Source of the DNA: a virus
Strand: one strand, 5' to 3'
Virus record (IMG/VR): IMGVR_UViG_3300047195_000504
Span: 1 to 44,742 of that record
Length of the DNA: 44,742 nucleotides
Each line of letters opens with the position of its first letter. Positions within the stretch are counted from its first letter, which is position 1. A program made the translations under genes and the position numbers. Below are positions 3,095 through 44,742 of this stretch, in pieces. Under the pieces are notes generated by a model. That model saw only the letters and a list, made by a program, of their open reading frames with translations, had not been told where the DNA came from and searched no databases.

Positions 3095-4576
3095 ATGCCT
3101 TATCCTTCAGAGCATGCTGCAAGGATAGCAGACCCTGATCAGTTCACCGGGATCAAGCGTAAGAACGGTGAATTTGGACCCGGTATTGATGTCATTTATG
3201 GAATTAAAAACGACAAGTCTGAGGTCCAGGCAATCAGGTTTGACTCTTCTAAGTACTCCCCAGAACAGGCAAAGGCGTGGCTGAAAAAGCACGATTACAA
3301 ACCGATCCGGTTTGAGCCGGCAACAGACAGCCGCGAGAACTCCGCGCCCGATGCACCACACTCCACCGGAGGCTCCGACCCGCAGCCGACCGGCAGTATT
3401 CCCCACATCCGGGCGTTGCAGGTCGCTTTTCACACCGCTAACAACCTCTACGATTTGGAGAACGGGGACCTCCTGATCAAGGACGTGCCACTCGTGGCTG
3501 AAGGGGAATGGACAGACTCCGCACAGAAATCCCCGCTCGTCTACACGGCAAAGACTCTCGAAGCGTACGCAGGGAACTGGATCCGCCGTACCGGTTACAA
3601 CCGGCATATGGGCGGCGTTCCCCGGGACGAGTCTAATCGGGTGAGCGAGGCGATCAATCCGCATTTTGGTCAATTCATGGACGAGGAGGGCACTACCCGC
3701 GCCGCCGTTATCTCTGATCTCCTTGTCTATGGCAGCACCCCGAGCGGCCGGGCGATGCAGGAGTTGATCAAGCGGAAGATCATCAAGTTCGTCAGCGTCG
3801 AGCACGGGGGCGACGAAGTGGAGAACCCACAGACCCACCGTATGGAAGCCGCCAGCCTCGTTTTCGGAGGGTTCGCCTTCGTGAACAAGGGAGCCTGTAA
3901 GGTTTGCAGGATCAACGAGGCAGCACCAGCTCAGGAGACACCGATGTTAAAAAAGGATGATTCTCTCGAAGGATTGCAGGTGATAATCCAATCGGCTCTT
4001 AATGACAAATTCAAATCACCATCCCCGGACGGATACCTCTCCGGTCTATATATTGTGATGACTTTCCCGGATCGCGTGATCTATTCCTATGATGGGAAGA
4101 AGTTCGAAGTTCCGTATATGGTCGAGAACGACTCTGCCACTCTCGGAACTCCGGTAGAGGTGGAGGAAGTCTACGTACAGAAAAAGGTACTCGAATTCTT
4201 CCCCGGGGCTGATGTGAAAGAGCTGATGGAAGCAATCCAAAAAAAACAGGACAAGAACATGACAGCAGGCAAGGAACTCGAAGCCGCAGTAGCGGCAGCC
4301 ACCGCTCCGATCATGAAGGAGATGGAGGCGATCAAGGCAGCGCAGAAACCCGCCGAGGTCAAGGTGGAGATCCCGAAGGAACTCTCCGAACTCCCGGGTA
4401 TGGTCAAGGAGCTCGCCGGTCTTCCGGCATCAATTAAGGCCCTTGCAGACCGGATCGATGCGCTGGAAAAAGATGGCATTCCGAAGACGGATGCTGGAAA
4501 CACCAAGGAACTCGAAGCCCTTCCGGAATATTACGTTCCGGTTGACAGGAAGAAGGGTATCGTAGGAGCGCAGTAA
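3095..4576 (+). CDS. Prohead protease (XkdF-like) fused to scaffold
   Basis: 493 residues from ATG 3095; the in-frame ATG 3059 is rejected because it lies within the promoter. Residues 1-75 show the XkdF-type N-terminus (M-P-Y-P-S-E-H-A-A-R, then G-I-D-V-I-Y-G-I and E-V-Q-A-I-R-F-D). Residues about 95-270 match a phage prohead serine protease, with F-V-S-V-E-H-G-G and F-G-G-F-A-F-V-N-K-G. The remainder is Lys/Glu/Ala-rich with coiled-coil repeats, as in capsid scaffolds. It cleaves scaffold and capsid termini during maturation. An internal start at 3944 could make scaffold alone. The decoration and capsid genes follow directly. Confidence 0.88.
   Translation: MPYPSEHAARIADPDQFTGIKRKNGEFGPGIDVIYGIKNDKSEVQAIRFDSSKYSPEQAKAWLKKHDYKPIRFEPATDSRENSAPDAPHSTGGSDPQPTGSIPHIRALQVAFHTANNLYDLENGDLLIKDVPLVAEGEWTDSAQKSPLVYTAKTLEAYAGNWIRRTGYNRHMGGVPRDESNRVSEAINPHFGQFMDEEGTTRAAVISDLLVYGSTPSGRAMQELIKRKIIKFVSVEHGGDEVENPQTHRMEAASLVFGGFAFVNKGACKVCRINEAAPAQETPMLKKDDSLEGLQVIIQSALNDKFKSPSPDGYLSGLYIVMTFPDRVIYSYDGKKFEVPYMVENDSATLGTPVEVEEVYVQKKVLEFFPGADVKELMEAIQKKQDKNMTAGKELEAAVAAATAPIMKEMEAIKAAQKPAEVKVEIPKELSELPGMVKELAGLPASIKALADRIDALEKDGIPKTDAGNTKELEALPEYYVPVDRKKGIVGAQ
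3933..3946 (+). promoter_or_regulatory. Internal ribosome binding site and in-frame start for a free scaffold
   Basis: AGGAG (3933-3937) precedes an in-frame ATG at 3944 with 6-nt spacing, at the junction between the protease and coiled-coil parts. Use of this start would give a 210-residue scaffold sharing the C-terminus of the protease, the arrangement known for lambda C/Nu3. Confidence 0.5.
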
Positions 4577-8472: not shown

Positions 8473-9219
8473 ATGACTGAAGAAGTTGGATCGACTCTGG
8501 GGGTAATGATCCTCCAGAACGGCCTTGTCATCGGGGAAATGGACGAGCCAAAATACCCGGCGGCAACGGCAACGGAAAAGGAGACCCGCGCCCAGAATAA
8601 TATCGGCGGGGTCATGACCAAACTGGTGACGTGGATCAATCACGATAACCTCGGGTTCAAGGTGAAATACACCGGTTCCGCAGCGCAGGAAACCCTGCGG
8701 ACGGACATCTACGATCGTCATATGGATACCTGGACGGTTGTCATGCCGCCGGATTTCCACAGTGGCGGGCATTCATTCCAATGGACCGGCCAGATCGCAA
8801 AATGCGCCCTGACAGAAGACGATGGTGTTGCATACCTCGACATGGAAGTCACTGTGAACGGCAGGATAACGCCGATCACCACATGGGCGGGTGGCCTGAC
8901 AACGCCATTCTTCGCGGTTGTCGATGATGACACCCCGGCAAACGTGCTCACGCCAGTGCCAGCAGCGGCAGCGGCAGTCTACGAATACGACCTCGAAGTC
9001 TATTCAGACAATGCCTATATCATCATCACCCCGACCGCAACCACGGGCACGATCTACGTGAACGGCACGGTTGTGGCAACCGGTGTAGCCTCAGGGAACC
9101 TCACGCTCAATGTGGGCGCCGGGCAGGTCACGTACATGTCGATTGTCGTGTCTGAATTGAACAAAACCCCGAAGATCTACTGGATACGGTGCCACGGCAG
9201 CACAACTGCGCACCCGTGA
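8473..9219 (+). CDS. Major tail tube protein with C-terminal Ig-like domain
   Basis: 248 residues. The first 160 residues behave as a siphovirus tail tube protein. After an Ala/Pro linker (about 157-170), the last 75 residues form a Thr/Val-rich beta sandwich (Y-I-I-I-T-P-T-A-T-T-G-T-I-Y-V-N-G), similar to cadherin-like Pb2/Ig-like decorations on tail tubes. Such surface domains may bind host glycans. The chaperone gene follows after 9 nt, the canonical order. Confidence 0.85.
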   Translation: MTEEVGSTLGVMILQNGLVIGEMDEPKYPAATATEKETRAQNNIGGVMTKLVTWINHDNLGFKVKYTGSAAQETLRTDIYDRHMDTWTVVMPPDFHSGGHSFQWTGQIAKCALTEDDGVAYLDMEVTVNGRITPITTWAGGLTTPFFAVVDDDTPANVLTPVPAAAAAVYEYDLEVYSDNAYIIITPTATTGTIYVNGTVVATGVASGNLTLNVGAGQVTYMSIVVSELNKTPKIYWIRCHGSTTAHP

Positions 9220-9228
9220 GCGTGACGC

Positions 9229-9618
9229 ATGGACGGCAGGAAACATACCGTTTTTGAGGTCGGCGGGAAGGTCTACAACCTCCGGGTCAGCTACAATGCC
9301 ATGTGCATGTTCGACGATCAGATCGGGCCGGTTACGGAACTCCTGAAAGGCACGACGGACTCAAAGAACTTCGTGGCGTACCGGGGCCTGGTATGGGCTT
9401 GCATCAACGCGTACGGCGCGGATCGGGTGACCGTCGAGCAGGCAGGTGACCTCTGTGAGCAGTACATCGCCGATCACGGGATGGAACAGTTCGGAAAAGC
9501 CATGAAAGGCATCATTGAATCCTCCGGCTGGCTGGGAGGCAGTGGTAAGGGCGATATAAAAAACCCGACCCCGGCCCCCGCAGCTTCCGGGAAACATTCC
9601 GGGAAATCGAGCGGATAG
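9229..9618 (+). CDS. Tail assembly chaperone, short form (gpG-like)
   Basis: 129 residues from ATG 9229. A beta start (V-F-E-V-G-G-K-V-Y-N-L-R-V-S-Y-N-A-M) and helical body match tail assembly chaperones that bind the tape measure. The last 19 residues after the slippery site are low-complexity (Pro, Ala, Ser, Gly, Lys), as expected for a region whose reading is optional. A -1 shift at 9558-9564 would replace this tail with a 130-residue extension. Confidence 0.88.
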   Translation: MDGRKHTVFEVGGKVYNLRVSYNAMCMFDDQIGPVTELLKGTTDSKNFVAYRGLVWACINAYGADRVTVEQAGDLCEQYIADHGMEQFGKAMKGIIESSGWLGGSGKGDIKNPTPAPAASGKHSGKSSG

Positions 9619-9956
9619 CCTACGGTATCGGCGGTCTGACCCCGGCAGAGTTCGGGACGATGACACCCGCCGAATTCCAGCCCTACATTGAAGCAAGGAT
9701 CGAACGAGAAAAGGAGACCGTGAAGATGGAGAACGAACGGATCGGCCTGATTGCGGCGATATTGCAGAACGGTATCCCCACGGTATCGGTCAGGAAAACC
9801 AGCTCAGCCCGGAAACCGTCGGACTACTTCAAGCCGGTGAAGTCCGATTCAGCAGAGCCCCATGTTCAAGATCCGGCCATCCGGGAAACCAGAATGCAAC
9901 GGATCTATTCGACGATGATGCAATGGGTAGGCGCGACGAAAGGGGGCGACCGGTAG
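9229..9956 (+). CDS. Tail assembly chaperone, frameshifted long form (gpGT-like)
   Basis: Predicted product of -1 ribosomal frameshifting at A AAA AAC (9558-9564): 112 residues from the first frame and about 130 from the second, 242 in total. The second frame is open from 9549 to the stop at 9954-9956 and has no good start of its own near its beginning. It contains F-R-E-I-E-R-I-A-Y-G-I-G-G-L-T-P-A-E-F, typical of the T part of these chaperones. In siphoviruses the ratio of the two forms controls tail assembly. The tape measure gene starts directly after. Confidence 0.85.
9558..9564 (+). promoter_or_regulatory. Programmed -1 frameshift heptamer A AAA AAC
   Basis: The heptamer is in the zero frame as ATA AAA AAC, fitting X XXY YYZ exactly, and lies within the 70-nt overlap of the two frames (9549-9618). 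About 20 nt downstream, TTCCGGGAA occurs twice (9585-9593, 9597-9605) and can form a short hairpin with one G-G mismatch and a 3-nt loop; this may stimulate the shift. Confidence 0.85.
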
Positions 9957-11927
9957 ATGCCATTTGAAGGATTTGCCAAGGGACTCGCGTTTCCGATCAT
10001 CGCTGATCTGACTGGCCTGAAAGCGGGGGTCTCCGAAGCTCTCGGGGAACTCGACAAGACGGAAGAGCGGTTCAAGGGACTGACCGCCGGCGCGAAGAAT
10101 CTCGGACTTGGGATGACTGGCGCAGGGCTCGCCATCGTCGCCCTCACCGACGATGCAAAGAAGACCAACGCCGAATTTGCCGGAACCGCGATCACGCTTG
10201 GTACCACCACAGAAGGTATCCGGAACCTTGCACTGGAAACTTCCGATGCGGGATTCCCCCTCCGGGATGTAACTGAGACCTTTGATCTGCTTGCCCGGGC
10301 GGGTGTCCGTGGCGACGATCAGATTCGGGCAATCTCCAAGAGCATGGACACGCTCGGAGACGCGACCGGCAACAGCGCCGTAACCGTCACCAGTTCCCTG
10401 ATTCCCGCCCTAAATGCTTTTGACATCCCGCTCTCTAAAGTCGGTGAGCATATGGACGGACTCACGTACCTGACGAAACATAGTACTATCGATCTTACTG
10501 ATTTTGCCGGTACAGTATCAACCTTGGGTCCAAAACTTAACTCAATGGGAATCTCTCTCGAAGATACTGAGGGGATAATGCTTGCCCTTGCGGATAAGGG
10601 ATACCAGGGCGCAGCCGCTACAAGATTCCTCCGAACGGCATTCACCGATGCAACGAAAGAATCGGATGGGTATTCTAATGCATTAGATGACCTGAAGACC
10701 AAATCCGAAAATCTCCAAAAGTCACAGGAAGATCTTAAAAATACTCAAAAAAGTCTACTCCAGACTCAAAAGGATCTTACCACTTCAACCCGGGATACTT
10801 CGCTCTCCTTACAGGAAAATACTCTCTCAATTGCCGATGCAAAGGATCAGCTTGCTGAAATGATCAGCAAAGGGAAGGACAAGGATGAGACTGATGCACA
10901 GTATTCCCGCAGACTTGAAGAACAGCGTCTTCGCATTATCTCTCTTGGTTATGCGCATGATGATCTGATCGTAAAACAGGCAGAACTGAAAACCAAAACC
11001 ATCGAAAATGCACAGGCACGGGCGGATAACACCATCGCACAGACCACGAATACTAAGGCAATCGTGGACAATGCAACAGCTCAATCCGACTTGCAGATTA
11101 AGATCGGATCCTCTACAGTAAAAGAAACAGATTTTTATGCTGCTCTTGGACTGACAAAAAAAGAGGTCGCTGCATATACTGAGAAAATCAAAGGCGCAAC
11201 CGGGGATACGGAAAAGTATGCCGATGCAGCCGACAGCGCCATCGGCACAACAGACAAATTTAAAAACATGTTTGATGAGCTCAAGTTATCCGTCGGTACT
11301 GCACTCGCTCCCTTCGATGGCTTCGGTGCGGTACTCGCAACCGGAGGCCCGCTGATCCTCGGGCTCACGCAGTTGCCGGCTCTCATCGGTGCCGTGAACG
11401 CGGGGCTCCTGTTCATGGCAGCAAACCCCATTGTGCTGGTCATTGCGGCGGTTGCAGCGCTGGTTCTGGGGCTGGCATACCTTGAGACGCGGTTCGGAGT
11501 GATCTCAAACACATTCAAACTTCTCGGGATCGTCTTCGGGGAGGTTTGGGGCGTCGTTGTCGAAACGATGAAATGGGCGGTCAACATCGTCATCGACGGT
11601 ATCAACACGATGATCCGGGGTCTGAACCTGCTGAACTTCTCCGTTCCGGACTGGGTACCGCTGATCGGCGGCCAATCTATCGGGTTCCACCTATCGGAGA
11701 TCCCGAAACTTTCTGCAGGGGCGATTGTCACGCAGCCCACGATCGCCATGATCGGTGAGTCCGGGCCGGAAGCCGTGGTCCCGCTCACCGGCAGAAACGC
11801 CGGGGGAGGTATCACCATCACCGGCAACACATTTGTCGTCCGGAACGATCAGGATATCAAGCTGGTCGCTATCGAACTGAAATCGCTCATTGACCGATCG
11901 AACCGGGGCCGGGGTGCAATAACGTGA
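9957..11927 (+). CDS. Tail tape measure protein
   Basis: 656 residues. The N-terminal 240 residues match TP901-type tape measures (N-A-E-F-A-G-T-A-I-T-L-G-T-T, then L-A-R-A-G-V-R-G-D-D-Q). A long coiled-coil/heptad section follows (about 240-450, e.g. L-Q-K-S-Q-E-D-L-K-N-T-Q-K-S-L), then two hydrophobic helices (about 465-510), and a C-terminus with G-E-S-G-P-E-A-V-V-P-L, a common tape-measure ending. At about 0.15 nm per residue this implies a tail near 100 nm. The middle section is more AT-rich than its flanks, suggesting mosaic exchange. Confidence 0.92.
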   Translation: MPFEGFAKGLAFPIIADLTGLKAGVSEALGELDKTEERFKGLTAGAKNLGLGMTGAGLAIVALTDDAKKTNAEFAGTAITLGTTTEGIRNLALETSDAGFPLRDVTETFDLLARAGVRGDDQIRAISKSMDTLGDATGNSAVTVTSSLIPALNAFDIPLSKVGEHMDGLTYLTKHSTIDLTDFAGTVSTLGPKLNSMGISLEDTEGIMLALADKGYQGAAATRFLRTAFTDATKESDGYSNALDDLKTKSENLQKSQEDLKNTQKSLLQTQKDLTTSTRDTSLSLQENTLSIADAKDQLAEMISKGKDKDETDAQYSRRLEEQRLRIISLGYAHDDLIVKQAELKTKTIENAQARADNTIAQTTNTKAIVDNATAQSDLQIKIGSSTVKETDFYAALGLTKKEVAAYTEKIKGATGDTEKYADAADSAIGTTDKFKNMFDELKLSVGTALAPFDGFGAVLATGGPLILGLTQLPALIGAVNAGLLFMAANPIVLVIAAVAALVLGLAYLETRFGVISNTFKLLGIVFGEVWGVVVETMKWAVNIVIDGINTMIRGLNLLNFSVPDWVPLIGGQSIGFHLSEIPKLSAGAIVTQPTIAMIGESGPEAVVPLTGRNAGGGITITGNTFVVRNDQDIKLVAIELKSLIDRSNRGRGAIT

Positions 11928-12947: not shown

Positions 12948-13751
12948 ATGCGACTGGATAGGGATGCAGTAGACCGGATGGGGCGGCTCGACCGCATGAG
13001 CGGTATCGGGTACCTACAATCCCTCGCAGCCTATCTCGGCACTTCCGGTGACGAATACGCCCGGCTCCAGATCTCGCATCTTCTCGCAGTCCCGGACACG
13101 ATTGGTTTCAGCGGCACATCGGGCCGCGAACATCTCGACCGCGCAGGGCTGGATCGGCGGTATACTCGCACAGTTTCTAGTTCGCACCCGGATTACGGCA
13201 CGCTCTCCAGCCTGTTCGACCGGCTGCGGATCGATCACAACCTGGCTGGATACCTGGAGAGCAAAAGTGATGTCCATGCCGCCCTACTACTCGCGCTCGC
13301 GGCATATATTGAGAGCAATTCAAGTGTCTACGCCCGGCTGCAGATCGCCCACAACATCGCAACCGAGCTGGATACTGAAAGTGATGTCTACGCCCGGCTC
13401 CAGATCGCCCAATTCCTGAAATCATATATCGGCACCGAATCCAATGTCTACGCCCGGCTCCAGATCGCCCACAACATCGCGGCCTACCTCCGCACGAACT
13501 CCAGTCTCTATGCGCAACTCCGTCAGATCGATTCGTGGACGTTCACGTTCTCGGGATCTCTGGCTGCCGGGAAAACGCTCTGCATCAACATGCGGGATTT
13601 CACGGTCAAGAACGACGGCGTGAACGCGATCGCCAACTTTACCGGGGACTTTCCCTCGATATTCCCCGGCACGAACTGGGTGATCTACACTGATTCTGAA
13701 GGGTCGAGAACCCTACGACTGGTCGTCTCAAAACGAGACAGGAAGGTTTGA
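12948..13751 (+). CDS. Tail protein with 20-residue tandem repeats
   Basis: 267 residues from ATG 12948. Residues about 86-190 contain consecutive 20-residue units of the form S-x-V-Y-A-R-L-Q-I-A-H-N-I-A-x-Y-L-x-T-E; one related unit lies earlier (about residue 33-50). The C-terminal 75 residues are a beta domain (W-T-F-T-F-S-G-S-L-A-A-G-K-T-L). The amphipathic repeats could form a coiled or solenoid shaft ending in a tip domain. No known family is recognised; position suggests a fibre or baseplate spacer. Confidence 0.78.
   Translation: MRLDRDAVDRMGRLDRMSGIGYLQSLAAYLGTSGDEYARLQISHLLAVPDTIGFSGTSGREHLDRAGLDRRYTRTVSSSHPDYGTLSSLFDRLRIDHNLAGYLESKSDVHAALLLALAAYIESNSSVYARLQIAHNIATELDTESDVYARLQIAQFLKSYIGTESNVYARLQIAHNIAAYLRTNSSLYAQLRQIDSWTFTFSGSLAAGKTLCINMRDFTVKNDGVNAIANFTGDFPSIFPGTNWVIYTDSEGSRTLRLVVSKRDRKV
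13202..13521 (+). repeat. 60-bp coding tandem repeats
   Basis: Units of 60 bp begin near 13202, 13262, 13322, 13382, 13442 and 13502. Three central units share long nearly identical stretches (for example TACGCCCGGCTCCAGATCGC). Each encodes one 20-residue unit, so unit gain or loss would keep the reading frame. Confidence 0.85.
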
Positions 13752-13757
13752 AAAGAT

Positions 13758-14666
13758 ATGGCTTATGTAGAAATGAAGAAACTGAAAAAGAACAGCGTCT
13801 CGACGACGATAACCGGCGATCTTCTTGTCGGAACGACTACGATCCCGGTTGCAGAACTCGCATATTTCCGCGACGCTGACGGTACCCTGATCACAAAAGG
13901 GATCGTGCTCGGGTATAACGACGCGACGGAAGCACAGTCAGAGGAGATCACGATCACGGGCGCGTCCGGATCGTCCGGGGCAGGTAACCTCACCGGAGCA
14001 ACCCGTGGCATCAAAGCAGATGGGTCAATCGGGCAGGCGTATGCATGGCCGTCCGGCACCCGGATCGCCGTGATGTTCTCGACTACGATCTATGAGATCA
14101 TCAAAGACAACTTCATCGCGCACGAATCCGGGAAAGCTCCAAATCCGTTCTTCGATTACCGCACGCTCTATCCGGGCGGCGCGATGGTTCCGACCGTCGA
14201 CCCGGCGGGGATGGTCGAGCAGTACGAAACGACCACCAACAAGAACAACTATGTCGCGGGGCAGTTCACAGACGGCGGCACGGACGAGCTGCAATGGCTC
14301 GTTGATTTCCCTGAAGACTGGGACGGCGACCATGCGACTCTGGGGAAAATCATCATCACGCCGATATGGACGGCAGCAAGCGGTAGCGGCACGGTCAAGT
14401 TCGTCTTCACTGGCAAGTTGTTCGCAAACGATGATGCGCTCGATACCGCTCTCGCCGCCATCGGAGACAGCACGGATACCCTGATCACGGCGGAGGATGT
14501 GCATGTCGGGCCGGCATCAACCGCAGCGGTCATCTCGCCGATTTCTGCGGGTGCAAAGACCGCCATCCTTAAGGTGACGCGGGACTCTGCGAATGACACA
14601 CTCAATGCGACTGCCCGGCTGATTGCAGTCCGGGTCAAGTTCATCCGGACACTGGCATACACATGA
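13758..14666 (+). CDS. Tail fibre / baseplate protein
   Basis: 302 residues from ATG 13758. The N-terminal 110 residues form a beta-rich domain (V-S-T-T-I-T-G-D-L-L-V-G-T-T-T-I-P-V, then R-D-A-D-G-T-L-I-T-K-G-I-V-L-G-Y) typical of phage baseplate or fibre attachment domains. The rest is a second beta domain with D-F-P-E-D-W-D. No enzyme motif is seen. It most likely carries receptor-binding or tip-assembly functions. Confidence 0.65.
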   Translation: MAYVEMKKLKKNSVSTTITGDLLVGTTTIPVAELAYFRDADGTLITKGIVLGYNDATEAQSEEITITGASGSSGAGNLTGATRGIKADGSIGQAYAWPSGTRIAVMFSTTIYEIIKDNFIAHESGKAPNPFFDYRTLYPGGAMVPTVDPAGMVEQYETTTNKNNYVAGQFTDGGTDELQWLVDFPEDWDGDHATLGKIIITPIWTAASGSGTVKFVFTGKLFANDDALDTALAAIGDSTDTLITAEDVHVGPASTAAVISPISAGAKTAILKVTRDSANDTLNATARLIAVRVKFIRTLAYT

Positions 14667-14676
14667 GGCAGAGCGG

Positions 14677-15936
14677 ATGAAACCTCATTATTTTGTTCTT
14701 GCGGGCATCATCGTTTTGCTGCTGATTGGAGTGGTACAGGCAACGACGTACACCAGTCAATATCCACTAGCTCACAACGACACGTATGTGAAATCTACAT
14801 CTGAACTAGCTGCGAATTATCACATTTATTATGCAACCGACCCGACAAAATCGCTGATCGGAGATGCGGATGGTAATGCTTGGATAGCGGCAACGGAGTC
14901 AAACCAACGTATACATGTCGACCTCGGATCTGCAAAAGTGATTAAGCGAATATACTATGAGAATCATCACCAGGCAGGGGGGTATACCGACCGTGGATCG
15001 AATGCTGTAACATTCTGGGGCACAAATTCCAGCACAGCGTTTGCAGAACTGACTTACTCGATAGACACCGACTGGACACAGATGACATTGGCTTCCGGCA
15101 ACCTCACACAGCATGTGGCGCTGGATCAGGCAGATCCTCAGTATATACTTGTCACAAACGATGCACCGTGTCAGTATTATGCTTTGAAGGTCGCGTCTAA
15201 CTTCGGGGGCACATATATAGGTATCCGGCGCATCGTGTTGCAGACCGAGGACCCCGCCGCTCCGGTAGGGAACTTTTCGATCAGCAACACGACCGGCACA
15301 GCTCCCTTGATTGCGGCATTCACGGATACATCGACGAATACCCCGACAGGATGGAACTGGAGTTTCACGAACGTTACCGGCGACAATATCCAAGTCTGGT
15401 TCAGCACATCGCAGAACCCGACAAAGACGTTTACCCTCGCCGGGAACTACTCGATCCAGCTCAATGTTACGAACGCGGGGGGAGCGAACACGACGCCTGC
15501 GAACACGAAATGGGTGAATGTATCCAGCGGTGCGACAACGCCGATAGTCCTGTGGACGGTCAACTCCCAGACAATTGTATTCCCCGGCAGGCTTATTGGC
15601 AATGACTCGTCCCTGAACACACCGACAGCCTGGTGCTGGTCGTTTGGTGACGGATCGGCCGTCCAGACCACCAAGAACGTCACGTACCAGTATGTGAAAA
15701 GAGGTGTCTGGAATGCCTCGCTGAACGCATCGAACGCGGCGGGGTACAACCAATCATACAAACTGATCCGGATTCTTGGGTTCGCGCAAGGAGCAGGGCC
15801 CAGTGCGCCTTTACCGGGCGTGCCGTGGCGGGAACAGGTGTCGATGGAGTACGGGACGTATTCGGTGAGCCGGGAACTCTCACCAGCGGAAAGAAGGATG
15901 ACTGACTGTAAACTCATCGGGCTCTGCGAGGTGTGA
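14677..15936 (+). CDS. Secreted protein with F5/8C-like and two PKD domains
   Basis: 419 residues from ATG 14677. Residues 1-22 form a signal peptide (hydrophobic A-G-I-I-V-L-L-L-I-G-V-V, cleavage after Q-A). Residues about 30-190 look like an F5/8-type carbohydrate-binding sandwich, with I-H-V-D-L-G-S-A-K-V-I-K. Two PKD domains follow, around 195-290 and 295-375, with W-N-W-S-F and W-C-W-S-F-G-D-G. Many N-x-S/T sequons suggest glycosylation. The last 50 residues lack this composition. Base use at the start is more AT-rich than the tail genes. Host-derived adhesin or exported receptor-masking protein are both possible. Confidence 0.8.
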   Translation: MKPHYFVLAGIIVLLLIGVVQATTYTSQYPLAHNDTYVKSTSELAANYHIYYATDPTKSLIGDADGNAWIAATESNQRIHVDLGSAKVIKRIYYENHHQAGGYTDRGSNAVTFWGTNSSTAFAELTYSIDTDWTQMTLASGNLTQHVALDQADPQYILVTNDAPCQYYALKVASNFGGTYIGIRRIVLQTEDPAAPVGNFSISNTTGTAPLIAAFTDTSTNTPTGWNWSFTNVTGDNIQVWFSTSQNPTKTFTLAGNYSIQLNVTNAGGANTTPANTKWVNVSSGATTPIVLWTVNSQTIVFPGRLIGNDSSLNTPTAWCWSFGDGSAVQTTKNVTYQYVKRGVWNASLNASNAAGYNQSYKLIRILGFAQGAGPSAPLPGVPWREQVSMEYGTYSVSRELSPAERRMTDCKLIGLCEV

Positions 15937-30180: not shown

Positions 30181-31916
30181 TGTCATCATGTCCGGCAAAG
30201 CCGGTAAAAGAAAAGAAATTTGGCGTCGCAGTCTGCCGGGAAAGAAAGTGCATCGATCTCCAGAAAGATCCAAAGTATCCCGACTCCCCGCAACATTGCG
30301 CCGTCACGCACGGAATGCCTGGCAGCATGCACTGTTGCGTCAAGGAGATGGATGCGGATCATTTCATCCGGCACATCAGCGGGCAGCTCAACAACGGCCC
30401 GTATACTTCCCGACCCGGCCCACGGAACTGTCCGAAGGAATGCCCGTACAAGATCCTTGTCGATGGCGAGAAGTTCGTTTTTGTGAAGGGTAAGCCGGAA
30501 AGCAGCAAGGTCCCCGCCAAGATCGGCACCTGCGCATTCACGGGAAAACCTCTCGGTGATTGGGGAGTATGTCCCTGCAATGTCCTGGGCAAGGAGCCCA
30601 AGTTCCAGGAGAGCCAGATCCTCCAGATCAAAGCAGCGATCGACCGGTGCCAGGACGTTTCACGCGATGCGTTCGAGTCCGGCCATGCTTGTGGCGGCAC
30701 CTCCTGCCCCGACGGCATTCAGCGGATTGAACATAAGGGCACTACCTGTCCACTCATCAGGGTGCCCTTCAAGGACCTGAAAGAGTGCCCGCTCTGGCGG
30801 ATCCCCGCGAAGATGCTGCCAGCACCAGACGCATCCGATTCAAAAAGCGTTCCTGACATAAAAAAGAATCCCCCGGCCCGGAACTGCTCACTGAAGGAAT
30901 GCCTGGAGAAAAAGTGCGAAGACGTGGTCGACAAACCCTATCCGGGTCCGCACTGCGGCAATCCGATAAGGATCTGCCAGACCTTGGGAAAGACCCCGCA
31001 GAATATCCACCGGTCCGATTGCCCGAATCATCTCTACGATGACCAGTCGGGAAGTGACACAAAAGTGACAGAGGCCCCACTTCGCGATGTTGAAAAACCG
31101 GCACAAAAAGACAAACCAACCTCCAAGAAACCGGTACAGAAAGAGCAACCAGATGCAACGGATACAAAGATAGCCGGATCCCGGCAGCTCACCTTCATGG
31201 ACTTTGTCATTTCCAGAAAATCCGGGAGATCCACGGTGCAGGATCCCCGCTGCAAACGGTGCGAGTCATCTCCGGATTGCCTGACGCATGATCCAGAGAA
31301 AGAGAATTGCGTCGCGAAGGCACTCCGGAAGAAGTCCGCCCGGCCCCCAAGTGCCGGCACCGGTGGCGGCCCGCAACCTATTCAACACTGCTGCGGCACC
31401 TGCGGGCACCACAAGGGCCGGAAGACTTTTCACGAGACCTGCCCACGGCTCGGAGAGCTGCTGTTCAAAGGCGGCCCCAAGAGCGCGAAGGTGCTGATGG
31501 AGGAGACCGCCGGCAGCCATCCCTGTGCGTTCTGGATAACCAAGGAGGCGGACCGCTTCGGCCCCTGTCCGGAGAAGAATTCGATGGGGAGCTGTATGCA
31601 TGGAGCTTACAGTTGTCCGCATAAGACTGAGCAGGCGCGGTCGGCGGTGGGTTGTACATATCCCATCCAACCCCCGCACTTTGCTGGCGATTCCCCTATA
31701 ATGAAGAAAGGCGCGAGCAAGAAACCGAACTGCGGAGGGAAACGTCCCGCGATCATGCGATGCCCGGACGACTGCCCAGAGAAGATGATCGTACCGGAGG
31801 ATCACGGCAAGGAAAAGAATTACCCTCAAGGTCGCTGTCGCATAACGGGTGAAAAACTCCGCGAGATGAAAGCATGTCCGAACGATCCCCCAAAAAGGAG
31901 TGTGAAAAAATCATGA
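30180..31916 (+). CDS. Giant Cys-rich protein with PIP-like PCNA-binding motif
   Basis: 578 residues with 40 cysteines (about 7%). At least six groups of C-P-x-x-C / C-x-x-C type are spread along it, including C-P-K-E-C-P-Y, C-P-C-N, C-K-R-C-E, C-C-G-T-C-G-H-H and C-P-D-D-C-P. A Lys/Pro-rich linker (about 285-335) carries Q-L-T-F-M-D-F at residues 336-342, matching the PIP-box form Q-x-x-h-x-x-F. The next gene is a PCNA homologue, overlapping by 4 nt. Zinc or iron-sulfur clusters are likely. It may tether an enzyme or repair function to the clamp. No family is recognised. Confidence 0.8.
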   Translation: MSSCPAKPVKEKKFGVAVCRERKCIDLQKDPKYPDSPQHCAVTHGMPGSMHCCVKEMDADHFIRHISGQLNNGPYTSRPGPRNCPKECPYKILVDGEKFVFVKGKPESSKVPAKIGTCAFTGKPLGDWGVCPCNVLGKEPKFQESQILQIKAAIDRCQDVSRDAFESGHACGGTSCPDGIQRIEHKGTTCPLIRVPFKDLKECPLWRIPAKMLPAPDASDSKSVPDIKKNPPARNCSLKECLEKKCEDVVDKPYPGPHCGNPIRICQTLGKTPQNIHRSDCPNHLYDDQSGSDTKVTEAPLRDVEKPAQKDKPTSKKPVQKEQPDATDTKIAGSRQLTFMDFVISRKSGRSTVQDPRCKRCESSPDCLTHDPEKENCVAKALRKKSARPPSAGTGGGPQPIQHCCGTCGHHKGRKTFHETCPRLGELLFKGGPKSAKVLMEETAGSHPCAFWITKEADRFGPCPEKNSMGSCMHGAYSCPHKTEQARSAVGCTYPIQPPHFAGDSPIMKKGASKKPNCGGKRPAIMRCPDDCPEKMIVPEDHGKEKNYPQGRCRITGEKLREMKACPNDPPKRSVKKS

Positions 31917-32629
31917 TGCGTATAGAGAAGACACGGTTCCTGGCCTTCTGCGAGGCAGTCCTCGCGATCGCGCTAGAGTGCAGGGTATATCTGAAGAACA
32001 CCGGCATCGAGGTCCGGGTGGTGGACGCTGCCAACGTCGCCATGATCAGCGCGAAGATGCCGAAAGAGGCCTTTGTGGAATACAAGGAAGAGACCGGGAT
32101 CCTCGGGTTCGACCTGCCGAAACTCAAGACCGCCGCCAGCCTCATGAAAGCCGGCATGCTGGAGATCGAGCAGGACGGAAAAGCCAAACTCCTGATCACG
32201 GATGGAAAGACCCGGTACAGCAACACGCTCCTGGACGTCAACACCATCCGCAAGGACCCGAACCCGCCGACCATCGTGCTGCCGGCAATGGTCGAGATCA
32301 ACGCGAAGGAACTGCAGGAGAGCATCGTTGCGATGAGCCGGATCGGCGACAAGATCCGGTTCTCCCTGCAGGGCACGGTGCTCACACTGACCACCGAAGG
32401 TGATACCGATCTACTCATTAAGGAGATTAAAGGCGAGGCCGTCAAATCACTCAAAGAGCCGGTGATGTCGTTGTTCTCGACCGATTACCTGAAAGAGATC
32501 AGCCGGGTATTCCGGGACACTGAGACTGTCACCGTGAGTATGAACACCGATCACCCGATCAAAATCGAGTGCACGGTCGATGAAATCGAACTGGAGTACC
32601 TTGTAGCTCCAAGAATTGAGAAGGAGTGA
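31913..32629 (+). CDS. pcn: DNA polymerase sliding clamp (archaeal PCNA type)
   Basis: 238 residues from ATG 31913, close to the 245-250 of host PCNA. Recognisable segments: V-V-D-A-A-N-V-A-M-I in the first domain, F-D-L-P-K-L-K-T (like the F-x-L-x-x-L of PCNA), the interdomain linker near residue 115-130, S-T-D-Y-L-K-E-I-S in the second domain and the C-terminal Y-L-V-A-P-R-I-E. It should form a trimeric ring on DNA and recruit polymerase, ligase and nucleases. There is no polymerase in the window, so it probably captures host replication proteins. Confidence 0.93.
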   Translation: MMRIEKTRFLAFCEAVLAIALECRVYLKNTGIEVRVVDAANVAMISAKMPKEAFVEYKEETGILGFDLPKLKTAASLMKAGMLEIEQDGKAKLLITDGKTRYSNTLLDVNTIRKDPNPPTIVLPAMVEINAKELQESIVAMSRIGDKIRFSLQGTVLTLTTEGDTDLLIKEIKGEAVKSLKEPVMSLFSTDYLKEISRVFRDTETVTVSMNTDHPIKIECTVDEIELEYLVAPRIEKE

Positions 32630-33514: not shown

Positions 33515-33813
33515 TGAAAATCCAATTATCCGTTTATGTTGATCATGGCCCCGATTGTTTTGATTTGATCCTCGACGTTCCTGACGGGAGACAACTGCGC
33601 CACATACTCGATGAGATAAAGTCAGAAATTCATGCAAGATTCGCAGCAGGGCACATTGAGGTAGATCGGCAACGGAGGCAGGGAACCGTCTTTGAAGAGG
33701 GCATAATCCCCGAACCACTTCGGATCGATGTCCCGGGGATTTTCATCTCAATGCTCACCAAGGCGGGAATTCCCGCCGAACTTGTCGGCCTAAAATGGAG
33801 GCTGGTATTATGA
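33514..33813 (+). CDS. Small beta-rich protein
   Basis: 99 residues from ATG 33514, overlapping the previous stop by one base. The first part is beta (I-Q-L-S-V-Y-V-D-H-G ... L-I-L-D-V-P-D-G) followed by a helix (L-R-H-I-L-D-E-I-K-S-E-I) and a final strand. The next gene begins in its stop. Unknown function. Confidence 0.68.
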   Translation: MKIQLSVYVDHGPDCFDLILDVPDGRQLRHILDEIKSEIHARFAAGHIEVDRQRRQGTVFEEGIIPEPLRIDVPGIFISMLTKAGIPAELVGLKWRLVL

Positions 33814-34580
33814 GGATCATCTACGAGCCCCGGGGCCGGGCGCTGGAATACGCCCCGCTCGCCGTCTCCCTGTATCGGGGTTGCCCGCATGGGTGCGTGT
33901 ACTGCTTCGCGCCCGCATCGACCAGAACCGACCGCGAGAAGTTCCTACAGGCGAATCCCCGTAAGAATGCGATCAACCTGCTCAAGGCTGATGTAGCAGA
34001 GCTGGCAGCCGCAAACGACCAGCGCGAGATCCTGATGAGCTTCACAACCGACCCATACCAACCACTGGAACAGTACCATCACCTCACCAGCACAGCGATT
34101 GGCATCCTAATCAACCATGGACTTCACTTCACAGTGCTCACTAAGGCGGGCATCAATAGCATGGTTGATTTTGAGCGTCTCGCATCGCGGCCTGATCTGT
34201 GCCGGTACGGGACAACGCTCGTCTTCAACCGTGAAGAGGATCGGCAAAAATGGGAGCCGAATGCAGCGCCCACCACCGAACGGGTAAAAGCCCTCAAGGC
34301 AGCTCATGAAAAAGGTATTCCAACATGGGTCTCTCTGGAGCCGATGATCGATCCAGACCAGACCCTGTTCCTGATTACGGTTACCCATCCCTTCGTGGAC
34401 GAGTACCGGCTCGGTGCCCTCAATCATGCCGAAAAGACCCTGACTGATGATCAGATGGTCGATTTTGTCAGCAAAGCATACACCCTGTTGAGATTCTACA
34501 AGAAGAAATTCATTTTCAAGAAGGATCTGCAGCCGTACCTGCAGACTGCCGGAGGATGTCTCGATGACCAGCATGTATGA
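33810..34580 (+). CDS. Radical SAM protein, SplB-like (DNA photolyase family)
   Basis: 256 residues from ATG 33810. The cluster-binding Cys25-x3-Cys29-x2-Cys32 is clear in R-G-C-P-H-G-C-V-Y-C-F. S-F-T-T-D-P-Y-Q, L-T-K-A-G and W-V-S-L-E-P-M fit the spore-photoproduct-lyase-like DNA repair group and its relatives. These enzymes repair UV photoproducts or act on other DNA bases. In an anaerobic host this chemistry is available. Position after the PCNA cluster supports a DNA role. Confidence 0.85.
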   Translation: MRIIYEPRGRALEYAPLAVSLYRGCPHGCVYCFAPASTRTDREKFLQANPRKNAINLLKADVAELAAANDQREILMSFTTDPYQPLEQYHHLTSTAIGILINHGLHFTVLTKAGINSMVDFERLASRPDLCRYGTTLVFNREEDRQKWEPNAAPTTERVKALKAAHEKGIPTWVSLEPMIDPDQTLFLITVTHPFVDEYRLGALNHAEKTLTDDQMVDFVSKAYTLLRFYKKKFIFKKDLQPYLQTAGGCLDDQHV

Positions 34581-40872: not shown

Positions 40873-41411
40873 CGGCTGCAAAGAAGAAAAGAGCCGGGAA
40901 TAAAGCTCCGAAAGGAAAGCCTCCGAAAAGGGTAGGCCGGCCCTCGCGGTATAACGCCGAATACCACCCGAAGATAGCCCGACTCCTTGCGCAGCTCGGG
41001 AAGGTTGATAAAGAGATTTCCAAAGAGATCGGCATCTCTGAAGTCACGCTCAATGCATGGAAAAAGGAGCATCCTGAATTTCTTAAGTCCTTAAAAAAAG
41101 GCAAGGAAGAGATTGACCAGCAGGTGGAGAACACGCTCCTCCGTAGGGCGCTTGGGTACTCCTTTACAGAGACGAAACAATACCGCAAGCCGCTGTTTGC
41201 ATCCAATGGCGATCCGGTGATCGGCCCCGATGGAAAACAGGTCAAGGCATCGATCCGGGAAGAGGTTACCGAGAAGTCGCTTGTGCCAGACGTAACTGCG
41301 CAGATATTCTGGTTGAAGAACCGGAGGCCCGGCCGCTGGCGAGACAAGCACGATGTCGAACAGACCGGCAATATGACTCTTCAGTTTGACAAGGAGGACG
41401 CGAACTTATGA
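40869..41411 (+). CDS. Terminase small subunit
   Basis: 180 residues from ATG 40869. A Lys-rich start is followed by a helix-turn-helix (I-S-K-E-I-G-I-S-E-V-T-L-N-A-W-K-K-E-H-P), typical of TerS DNA binding. A coiled-coil section and a C-terminal part with V-T-A-Q-I-F-W-L-K-N-R-R-P-G-R-W form the oligomer and TerL contact region. It recognises the pac or cos site and starts packaging. It overlaps TerL by 4 nt. Confidence 0.87.
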   Translation: MTAAKKKRAGNKAPKGKPPKRVGRPSRYNAEYHPKIARLLAQLGKVDKEISKEIGISEVTLNAWKKEHPEFLKSLKKGKEEIDQQVENTLLRRALGYSFTETKQYRKPLFASNGDPVIGPDGKQVKASIREEVTEKSLVPDVTAQIFWLKNRRPGRWRDKHDVEQTGNMTLQFDKEDANL

Positions 41412-42754
41412 CGGCAGCCGCAGCCATGCCGGTCCAGTACCAGCAGCAGCCGGCGTTCCGGATGACCGCAGATCAAAAACGCCTCCGGGCACTTGCTGCG
41501 GCATCCTATAGCCGCATCCTGGCACACGGTGGCAGCCGAAGCGGAAAGACATTCGAGATCTGCAGGGAGCTTGTGATCCGGGCCCTCAAATCCCCAGGCA
41601 GCCGGCATCTTATCACCCGGTTCCACTTCCGGGATGCAAAGATCGCAATCTTCATGGACACTCTGCCGAAGGTTTTGGCACTTTGTTTTCCTGAGTTGAA
41701 AGGTCGGGTACGCTTCGATCGCACAGACTTCTTCGTCCGGTTCCCTAATGGAAGTGAAATCTGGATTGGCGGTCTTGACGACAAAGAACGCACCGAGAAG
41801 ATCCTCGGCCTTGAGTACGCGACCATCTACTTCTGCGAGATCAGCCAGATCAGCTTCCACGCAATCGAGACGGCCCTCACCCGCCTCGCGCAGAAATGCC
41901 CGGGTCTTAGGAACAAAGCATATTTCGATTGCAATCCCCCGACGAAACGCCACTGGGCATATTTATACTTCTTCCTGCATATCAACCCAGCAACGAAAGT
42001 CAAGCACCCATTCCCCGGCCTCTTTACAGATCTACAGATGAACCCAGAAGGTAACAGGGAGAATCTGCCAGATGGGTATATCGAGCAGGAGCTCGGGGGG
42101 CTGTCTGAGAGAAAACGGCGCCGGTTCAGAGATGGGGAATGGCTCGACGATGTGGAAGGCGCCCTATGGAAACGGGTATGGATCAATGCCAACCGTGTCC
42201 AGAAAGAACCCGAGATGCTCCGGATCGTTGTTGCTGTCGACCCGGCTGTGACCTCCGGGGAAGGCAGCAATGCAACTGGCATCACCATCCAGGGCATGGA
42301 TACTCGCCGCCCACTCCCGCATTTCTATGTGCTCGCTGACAGGACAATCGAGCATGCAACCCCGCTGGAATGGGGGCAGGCCGCCATCAATGCATTCCAT
42401 GAATTCAACGCGGATCTCATCGTCGGAGAGGTCAACAATGGGGGGGAGCTCGTCAAGCGCAACATCAATGCGATCGAGCCGAACGTGCCGTTCAAGATGG
42501 TGCATGCGTCAAGGGGAAAGATCAAGCGTGCCGAGCCGATCGCCAACCTTTACGAGCAGGGCCGGGTGCACCATGTCGACGAATTCCCCGAGCTTGAGGA
42601 TGAGCAGTGCAGCTATACGCCCCAGATGGAAGAAGTAGGTGCGAACAGCCCGAACCACATGGATGCCTGCGTCTGGGGGCTGACAGAACTGTCAGGGAAC
42701 ACCGGCGGCCACATCCGGGCAACCGGGCGAAAGATGGAGAAGGCAAGAAAATGA
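41408..42754 (+). CDS. Terminase large subunit
   Basis: 448 residues from ATG 41408. Walker A is G-G-S-R-S-G-K-T at residues 41-48. The Walker B region follows in T-I-Y-F-C-E-I-S-Q, then the coupling motif near residues 170-185. The nuclease domain begins with V-A-V-D278-P and continues through D-L-I-V-G-E-V-N-N and a late D-A-C-V-W-G. It is the ATP-driven DNA packaging motor with headful or cos cleavage activity. The next gene overlaps as ATGA. Confidence 0.95.
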   Translation: MTAAAAMPVQYQQQPAFRMTADQKRLRALAAASYSRILAHGGSRSGKTFEICRELVIRALKSPGSRHLITRFHFRDAKIAIFMDTLPKVLALCFPELKGRVRFDRTDFFVRFPNGSEIWIGGLDDKERTEKILGLEYATIYFCEISQISFHAIETALTRLAQKCPGLRNKAYFDCNPPTKRHWAYLYFFLHINPATKVKHPFPGLFTDLQMNPEGNRENLPDGYIEQELGGLSERKRRRFRDGEWLDDVEGALWKRVWINANRVQKEPEMLRIVVAVDPAVTSGEGSNATGITIQGMDTRRPLPHFYVLADRTIEHATPLEWGQAAINAFHEFNADLIVGEVNNGGELVKRNINAIEPNVPFKMVHASRGKIKRAEPIANLYEQGRVHHVDEFPELEDEQCSYTPQMEEVGANSPNHMDACVWGLTELSGNTGGHIRATGRKMEKARK

Positions 42755-44280: not shown

Positions 44281-44742
44281 ACGGCACTCCATCCCGTCCT
44301 CTCCCGCGCCATCGCACGGTTCACCCGCGCCGCCATCGGCCTGAAGAAGACCCGGGAGAAGGACAGCATCGCCCGCGCCCACCAGCCGGCGCTTGAAGCG
44401 TTCTTCCGCAAACAGTACGGTCTCGTGATGTTCCGCATGATGTTCATGCAGGAGTATTTCCCACTGGTGCAGCAGGCCGAGCCGGCGGCCCGCGTGATGG
44501 AGGTCAAGCAGCCGCCGAACCCCGAGGCCCTGAAACGATGGGGGGCGATCTGGCAGGATGTCGAGCAGAAGACCACGGACGAGCTCCAGCAGATTGTGAA
44601 GGGAATCGAAGGCGACGCCTTGGTCAAAGGCGCGGCACAGCTCCAGCAGCAGCTGGGATTGTTTGATCCGAAAACCACGTTCACCCTTTCGAACCCCCGG
44701 GCGGTTGCGTGGATGCGGAAGAACGGCGGCTCTGTCGATTAT
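44281..44742 (+). CDS. Minor head protein, SPP1 gp7 / Mu gpF family (N-terminal part)
   Basis: First part of the gene that continues at base 1 (copy in the overlap: 44616-44742). The frame is open after the in-frame stop at 44266-44268. AGGGAGGT at 44268-44275 is a strong ribosome binding site, and the codon at the right distance is ACG 44281, one transition from ATG. The next in-frame ATG (44428) would remove about 49 conserved-looking residues. The start may be ACG or a population variant. Together with 1-526 the product has about 286 residues. Confidence 0.8.
44616..44742. repeat. Terminal direct repeat, right copy
   Basis: Identical to bases 1-127; see left copy. The overlap makes the circular length 44,742 - 127 = 44,615 bp. 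Confidence 0.97.

Follow-up and report, generated by a model that had tools for sequence, protein, structure and literature searches.

A conserved X_XXA_AAC heptamer and predicted -1 frameshifting in the tail chaperone genes of an archaeal virus

Described frameshift systems and the anatomy of the G/T overlap

Frameshifted tail chaperones are well established in tailed phages: the heptamer of the lambda G/GT pair is G_GGA_AAG, and a downstream stimulatory structure is not essential for frameshifting in the G/GT family. Within archaea, the sole demonstrated case according to a 2021 review is the fucA1 gene of Saccharolobus solfataricus, with -1 frameshifting at A_AAA_AAT (PMC8211752). For archaeal viruses, -1 sites have been predicted in HVTV-1 and in HCTV-1, -2 and -5 (PMC5009743, PMC8211752), at G_GGA_AAT in the HrrHc1_110/115 genes of Hardycor1 (PMC7911831) and, according to Xu et al. 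2004 (as cited in PMC3483164), in psiM2; the tail assembly chaperone of HCTV-2 is annotated in GenBank as a joined CDS (PMC5009743). The first-pass annotation of the locus described here held that such frameshifting is documented much less in archaea than in bacteriophages, which is overstated as far as predictions are concerned, since these date back to psiM2 and include A_AAA_AAC in HCTV-2, and is fair for direct experimental proof, which is scarce.

The window, i.e., the whole 44,742-nt stretch of viral DNA analyzed here, carries an exact 127-bp terminal direct repeat (1-127 and 44616-44742), and a gene resembling Mu gpF (PF04233, 5.3e-16) spans its ends; it appears to be a complete 44,615-bp genome, either circular or circularly permuted. 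The tail region contains the following features:

8473..9219, + strand: candidate gene for the major tail (tube) protein, from its position and from a homologue in a provirus of genome G195; its match to phrog_476 ('major tail protein') is only 0.14
9229..9618, + strand: gene G, encoding the 129-aa zero-frame product, a predicted tail assembly chaperone (phrog_2115, phrog_183, gene position)
9549..9956, + strand: open region of the T frame (-1), whose translated part is expected from 9564/9565 on
9549..9618, + strand: 70-nt overlap of the G and T frames, from the frame coordinates
9558..9564, + strand: A_AAA_AAC slippery heptamer, in the zero frame of G
9957..11927, + strand: tape measure protein gene (phrog_58, 2.2e-19; PF10145, 2.4e-22)

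The G/T pair is flanked upstream by the tail-tube-like gene, whose product is 30% identical (254 aa, E 9e-27) to that of the gene at the same position in the G195 provirus, and the tape measure gene lies directly downstream of T. Further along, in the tail-tip region, a PKD-domain protein (14623-15936) is a possible host-adhesion protein.

Two elements of the first-pass description are confirmed at this locus. The heptamer lies in the zero frame of G (codon context GAT ATA AAA AAC CCG) and inside the 70-nt overlap, and the second frame has no start at its beginning, the first ATG, GTG or TTG of the -1 frame being ATG 9660. Canonical in-frame heptamers (Y being A or T and Z not G) are scarce across the plausible genes of this genome, at 10 per 12,087 codon positions, and the chance expectation for one in the 23-codon overlap is ~0.02; the comparative evidence presented below is far stronger than this single-genome estimate.

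The locus resembles lambda G/GT (Xu, Hendrix and Duda 2004) in gene order, in a -1 shift late in G, in the T family and in product logic, while lambda has a bacterial host and an experimentally proven frameshift. HCTV-2 (Haloarcula californiae tailed virus 2, KC292028) shares A_AAA_AAC, the -1 direction and a tape measure gene immediately downstream, with an overlap of 64 nt against 70 nt in the window, and differs in its haloarchaeal host and in a heptamer that abuts the stop (AAC TGA). Methanothermobacter virus psiM2 (NC_001902) is similar as a methanogen virus with an in-register heptamer and an overlap of 67 nt; unlike the window, it has A_AAA_AAG, an extra gene that separates T from the tape measure gene, and an ATG overlapping the G stop. 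The T frame of psiM2 (L152, 13712-13948), which follows ORF19 (13209-13778), is unannotated in its record. Hardycor1 likewise offers an archaeal virus chaperone pair, although with another heptamer and another host, and fucA1 shares a six-A heptamer but is a cellular enzyme gene of a distant archaeal host.

Homology of both halves and conservation of the heptamer

To gather relatives, we used G, T and the tape measure protein as queries and also searched the order holding a Methanocorpusculum MAG. With duplicates removed, this gave 14 distinct homologues: L002, L003, L004 (= L005), L006, L007, L008, L010, L016, L017, L018, L019, L043, L046 and L096. G matched phrog_2115 ('tail protein') in 15/15 family sequences and phrog_183 ('tail chaperone protein') in three, the values for the window being 5.6e-15 and 0.0029. 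The T of 14/14 members matched the Pfam family Phage_TAC_6 (at best 5.9e-7), and that of 6 of 14 also matched the family of lambda gpT, Phage_tail_T (at best 6.8e-7), in agreement with the initial view of the second frame as a typical T extension; the match of the window's own T to Phage_TAC_6 is weak (0.013, under the curated Pfam cut-off). AlphaFold2 predicted an N-terminal beta-hairpin followed by helices for G, with moderate confidence (pLDDT 69.6), and a helical T, with mediocre confidence (pLDDT 63.0). The G model, at that pLDDT, gave no significant structural match against the PDB. Neither G nor T matched any named phage in tblastn, and scanning genomes with the G alignment yielded no relatives. 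Based on homology and gene order, we infer that G and G-T are tail assembly chaperones.

When heptamers were aligned across the family, as had been suggested at the outset, an in-register X_XXA_AAC was found at the equivalent place in 14/14 homologues (15/15 with the window). The sequence is A_AAA_AAC in the window and nine homologues, G_GGA_AAC in four (L016, L017, L019, L046) and C_CCA_AAC in one (L008). The residue preceding Asn varies among Lys, Gly and Pro, and the next codon upstream is equally variable (Ile, Thr, Ser, Lys, Glu, Gly, Asp), its third base being X in every case. Under random synonymous choice, the joint probability of the X_XXA_AAC pattern is 1e-17.7 for all 15 sequences and 1e-11.1 for the nine divergent members, values that are based on each locus's own codon usage, ignore shared ancestry, and thus serve only as a guide. 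Identity of G to the window goes down to 43% among virus contigs and to 22% for L096, so that synonymous sites should be well scrambled.

The T half is conserved as well, with 42-79% identity to the window in 13 relatives, all of which retain the frame relation and the in-register heptamer. With this pattern, it is highly improbable that the overlap arose through a frameshift mutation or holds the heptamer by chance, with T decaying or unexpressed.

Alternatively, ribosomes that have terminated on G could reinitiate inside the T frame, at ATG 9660 or at a non-standard codon, and make T as a separate protein. An in-frame ATG does exist at 9660, reinitiation is possible in the five relatives with an ATG or TTG somewhere ahead of the T block, and other archaeal chaperone pairs have a start overlapping the G stop (ATGA in psiM2; T-frame starts at -3 in L132 and the L161 group). 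However, ATG 9660 sits 42 nt past the G stop, and a start there would remove the conserved block FREIERIAYGIGGLTPAEF. Moreover, 10 of the 15 sequences, i.e., the window and nine of the 14 relatives, have no T-frame start codon (ATG, GTG or TTG) before the conserved block around AYGIGGLTPAEF, and an internal start would leave the retention of X_XXA_AAC unexplained. The T frame of L006 and of L007 opens with the heptamer, a stop lying directly ahead of it, so that no entry into the frame is possible upstream of the heptamer. A second frame with its own start in relatives had been named beforehand as the observation that would speak against frameshifting: it was absent from nine of the 14, with a possible start in the other five, and this check does not refute frameshifting. 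Separate initiation of T is rejected by the start-codon scan for the window and most relatives, and we consider it very improbable overall.

The two frames might also be joined during transcription, by an RNA polymerase slipping along the A6 run, rather than by ribosomal slippage, the window and nine homologues having at least six consecutive A. Yet five relatives carry G_GGA_AAC or C_CCA_AAC, with runs of at most three, and still keep the tandem-slippage pattern in register, which disfavors transcriptional slippage and leaves it with very little probability.

Given the gene order, the homology of both halves, the lack of a T start and the conserved in-register X_XXA_AAC, we read the locus as a G/G-T programmed -1 frameshift through which a single start codon is predicted to give rise to two tail assembly chaperones, at a fixed ratio (probability of about 0.93), a reading that the comparison makes very likely. 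Most ribosomes would translate G and terminate at 9618, and a minority would move back one base on A_AAA_AAC, with tRNA-Lys and tRNA-Asn re-pairing on AAA-AAA, and read on in the T frame to give a G-T fusion of ~242 residues ending at 9956; both the occurrence and the efficiency of this slippage are predictions from sequence. The analogy with lambda gpG/gpGT suggests that the tape measure protein would be coated by the G parts and tail-tube subunits recruited by the T extension, both chaperones leaving before tail completion. Once both tRNAs had slipped in tandem on AAA-AAC, translation would resume at CCC (9564-9566) and give the junction D-I-K-N-P-D (…G-D-I-K-N-P-D-P…). The K-K-P-D junction proposed in the first-pass annotation needs correction accordingly: tandem slippage would give K-N-P-D, and K-K-P-D would arise only if the P-site tRNA slipped alone.

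Candidate stimulators and other archaeal sites

Two elements near the heptamer were considered as stimulators:

9585..9605, + strand: hairpin formed by TTCCGGGAA-ACA-TTCCGGGAA, 8 bp, -9.6 kcal/mol, 20 nt 3' of the heptamer
9533..9551, + strand: G-rich Shine-Dalgarno (SD)-like stretch upstream of the heptamer, a tentative candidate for a dnaX-like stimulator

The downstream repeat can form a hairpin, as had been noticed from the sequence, but it begins 20 nt past the heptamer, is common to the window and L002 alone in the alignment, and coincides with a repeated FRE in T. No conserved hairpin or pseudoknot was found 5-9 nt past the heptamer across the 15 sequences (mean fold z of +0.1, -0.3 and -0.2 for 40, 60 and 90 nt). 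A role for the hairpin as a conserved stimulator is thus ruled out by fold z-scores and alignment.

Upstream of the heptamer, predicted pairing with the anti-SD (core assumed to be AUCACCUCCU) peaks in segments ending 5-7 nt before it, at a mean of -6.5 kcal/mol in the window's family vs about -2 elsewhere. The window's own G-rich stretch lies partly further upstream than its counterpart in relatives. Compared to other sites within the same genes, the pairing reaches z -4.6 in the window's family and z -3.2 at ten other archaeal sites, whereas against synonymous shuffles it reaches only z -2.2 and -1.3, and the signal may come largely from a Gly/Glu/Asp-rich linker. It is conceivable, if rather doubtful, that methanogen tailed viruses and their relatives use a common signal, i.e., a heptamer ending in A_AAC (usually A_AAA_AAC) with an SD-like purine stretch ~5-15 nt upstream as a stimulator, without downstream structure. 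If true, this would represent internal-SD-stimulated -1 frameshifting in archaea.

Beyond the window's family, 49 tape-measure neighborhoods from the order Methanomicrobiales and its phylum were examined for -1 pairs. Thirteen of these hold a -1 pair with an in-register A_AAA_AAC (L132, L134, L142, L146, L161, L163, L165, L166, L168, L169, L170) or A_AAA_AAG (L158, L164) at the end of its first gene, usually 3-9 nt ahead of the stop, and 21 nt in L142. Judged by eye from their T sequences, the 13 perhaps represent three or four independent lineages, several of them being one family. For some pairs in the set formed by these neighborhoods, psiM2 and HCTV-2, a start codon overlaps the G stop, and there reinitiation is possible. 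The Drs3 candidate gene showed neither a -1 pair nor a suitable heptamer. A separate archaeal provirus, L141, carries a chaperone pair (reverse complement, 3576-3968 and 3809-4306) with a -1 overlap of 160 nt and without a canonical heptamer.

Host and implications

The host assignment involves one further gene of the window:

31874..32629, + strand: archaeal-type PCNA sliding clamp (PCNA_C, 1.1e-6)

This PCNA was matched in 218 of 232 Methanomicrobiales-order genomes, with the best match, at 44% identity, being a second PCNA in G195 that lies ~20 kb away from L096, the T gene of the provirus. G195, from the order of the Methanocorpusculum MAG, carries in its chromosome a related provirus with A_AAA_AAC TAG, and this region shares with the window a radical SAM protein (75% identity), terminase (41%), the tail-tube candidate (30%) and T (39% over 49 aa). 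Together, the encoded PCNA and the kin integrated in an archaeal chromosome show that the host is archaeal, consistent with the initial description of an archaeal virus, and the virus very probably infects a methane-producing archaeon.

The terminase was left out of this assignment because its relatives are mostly found in bacterial genomes: a terminase-alignment scan returned mainly Victivallales/Lentisphaerae and alphaproteobacteria, along with Methanocorpusculum MAG contigs. Within the genome collection, the large terminase (41408-42754) is up to 55% identical to Victivallales/Lentisphaerae and alphaproteobacterial genomes vs 43-46% for archaeal entries, which points to a packaging module common to both domains. 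For the radical SAM protein (33795-34580), identity to the G195 provirus region is far above that of most other shared genes, which may reflect a recent exchange or else strong conservation of a viral function.

Overall, the window is a well-supported additional example of the known G/GT mechanism, in a methanogen virus family. The comparative set of sites across many methanogen viruses, some of them integrated, provides clean natural sites for testing, and the observed pattern, with X varying, A_AAC fixed and no downstream structure, leads to predictions on what stimulates slippage of archaeal ribosomes. In viruses of this kind, gene callers will overlook the T half of the chaperone.
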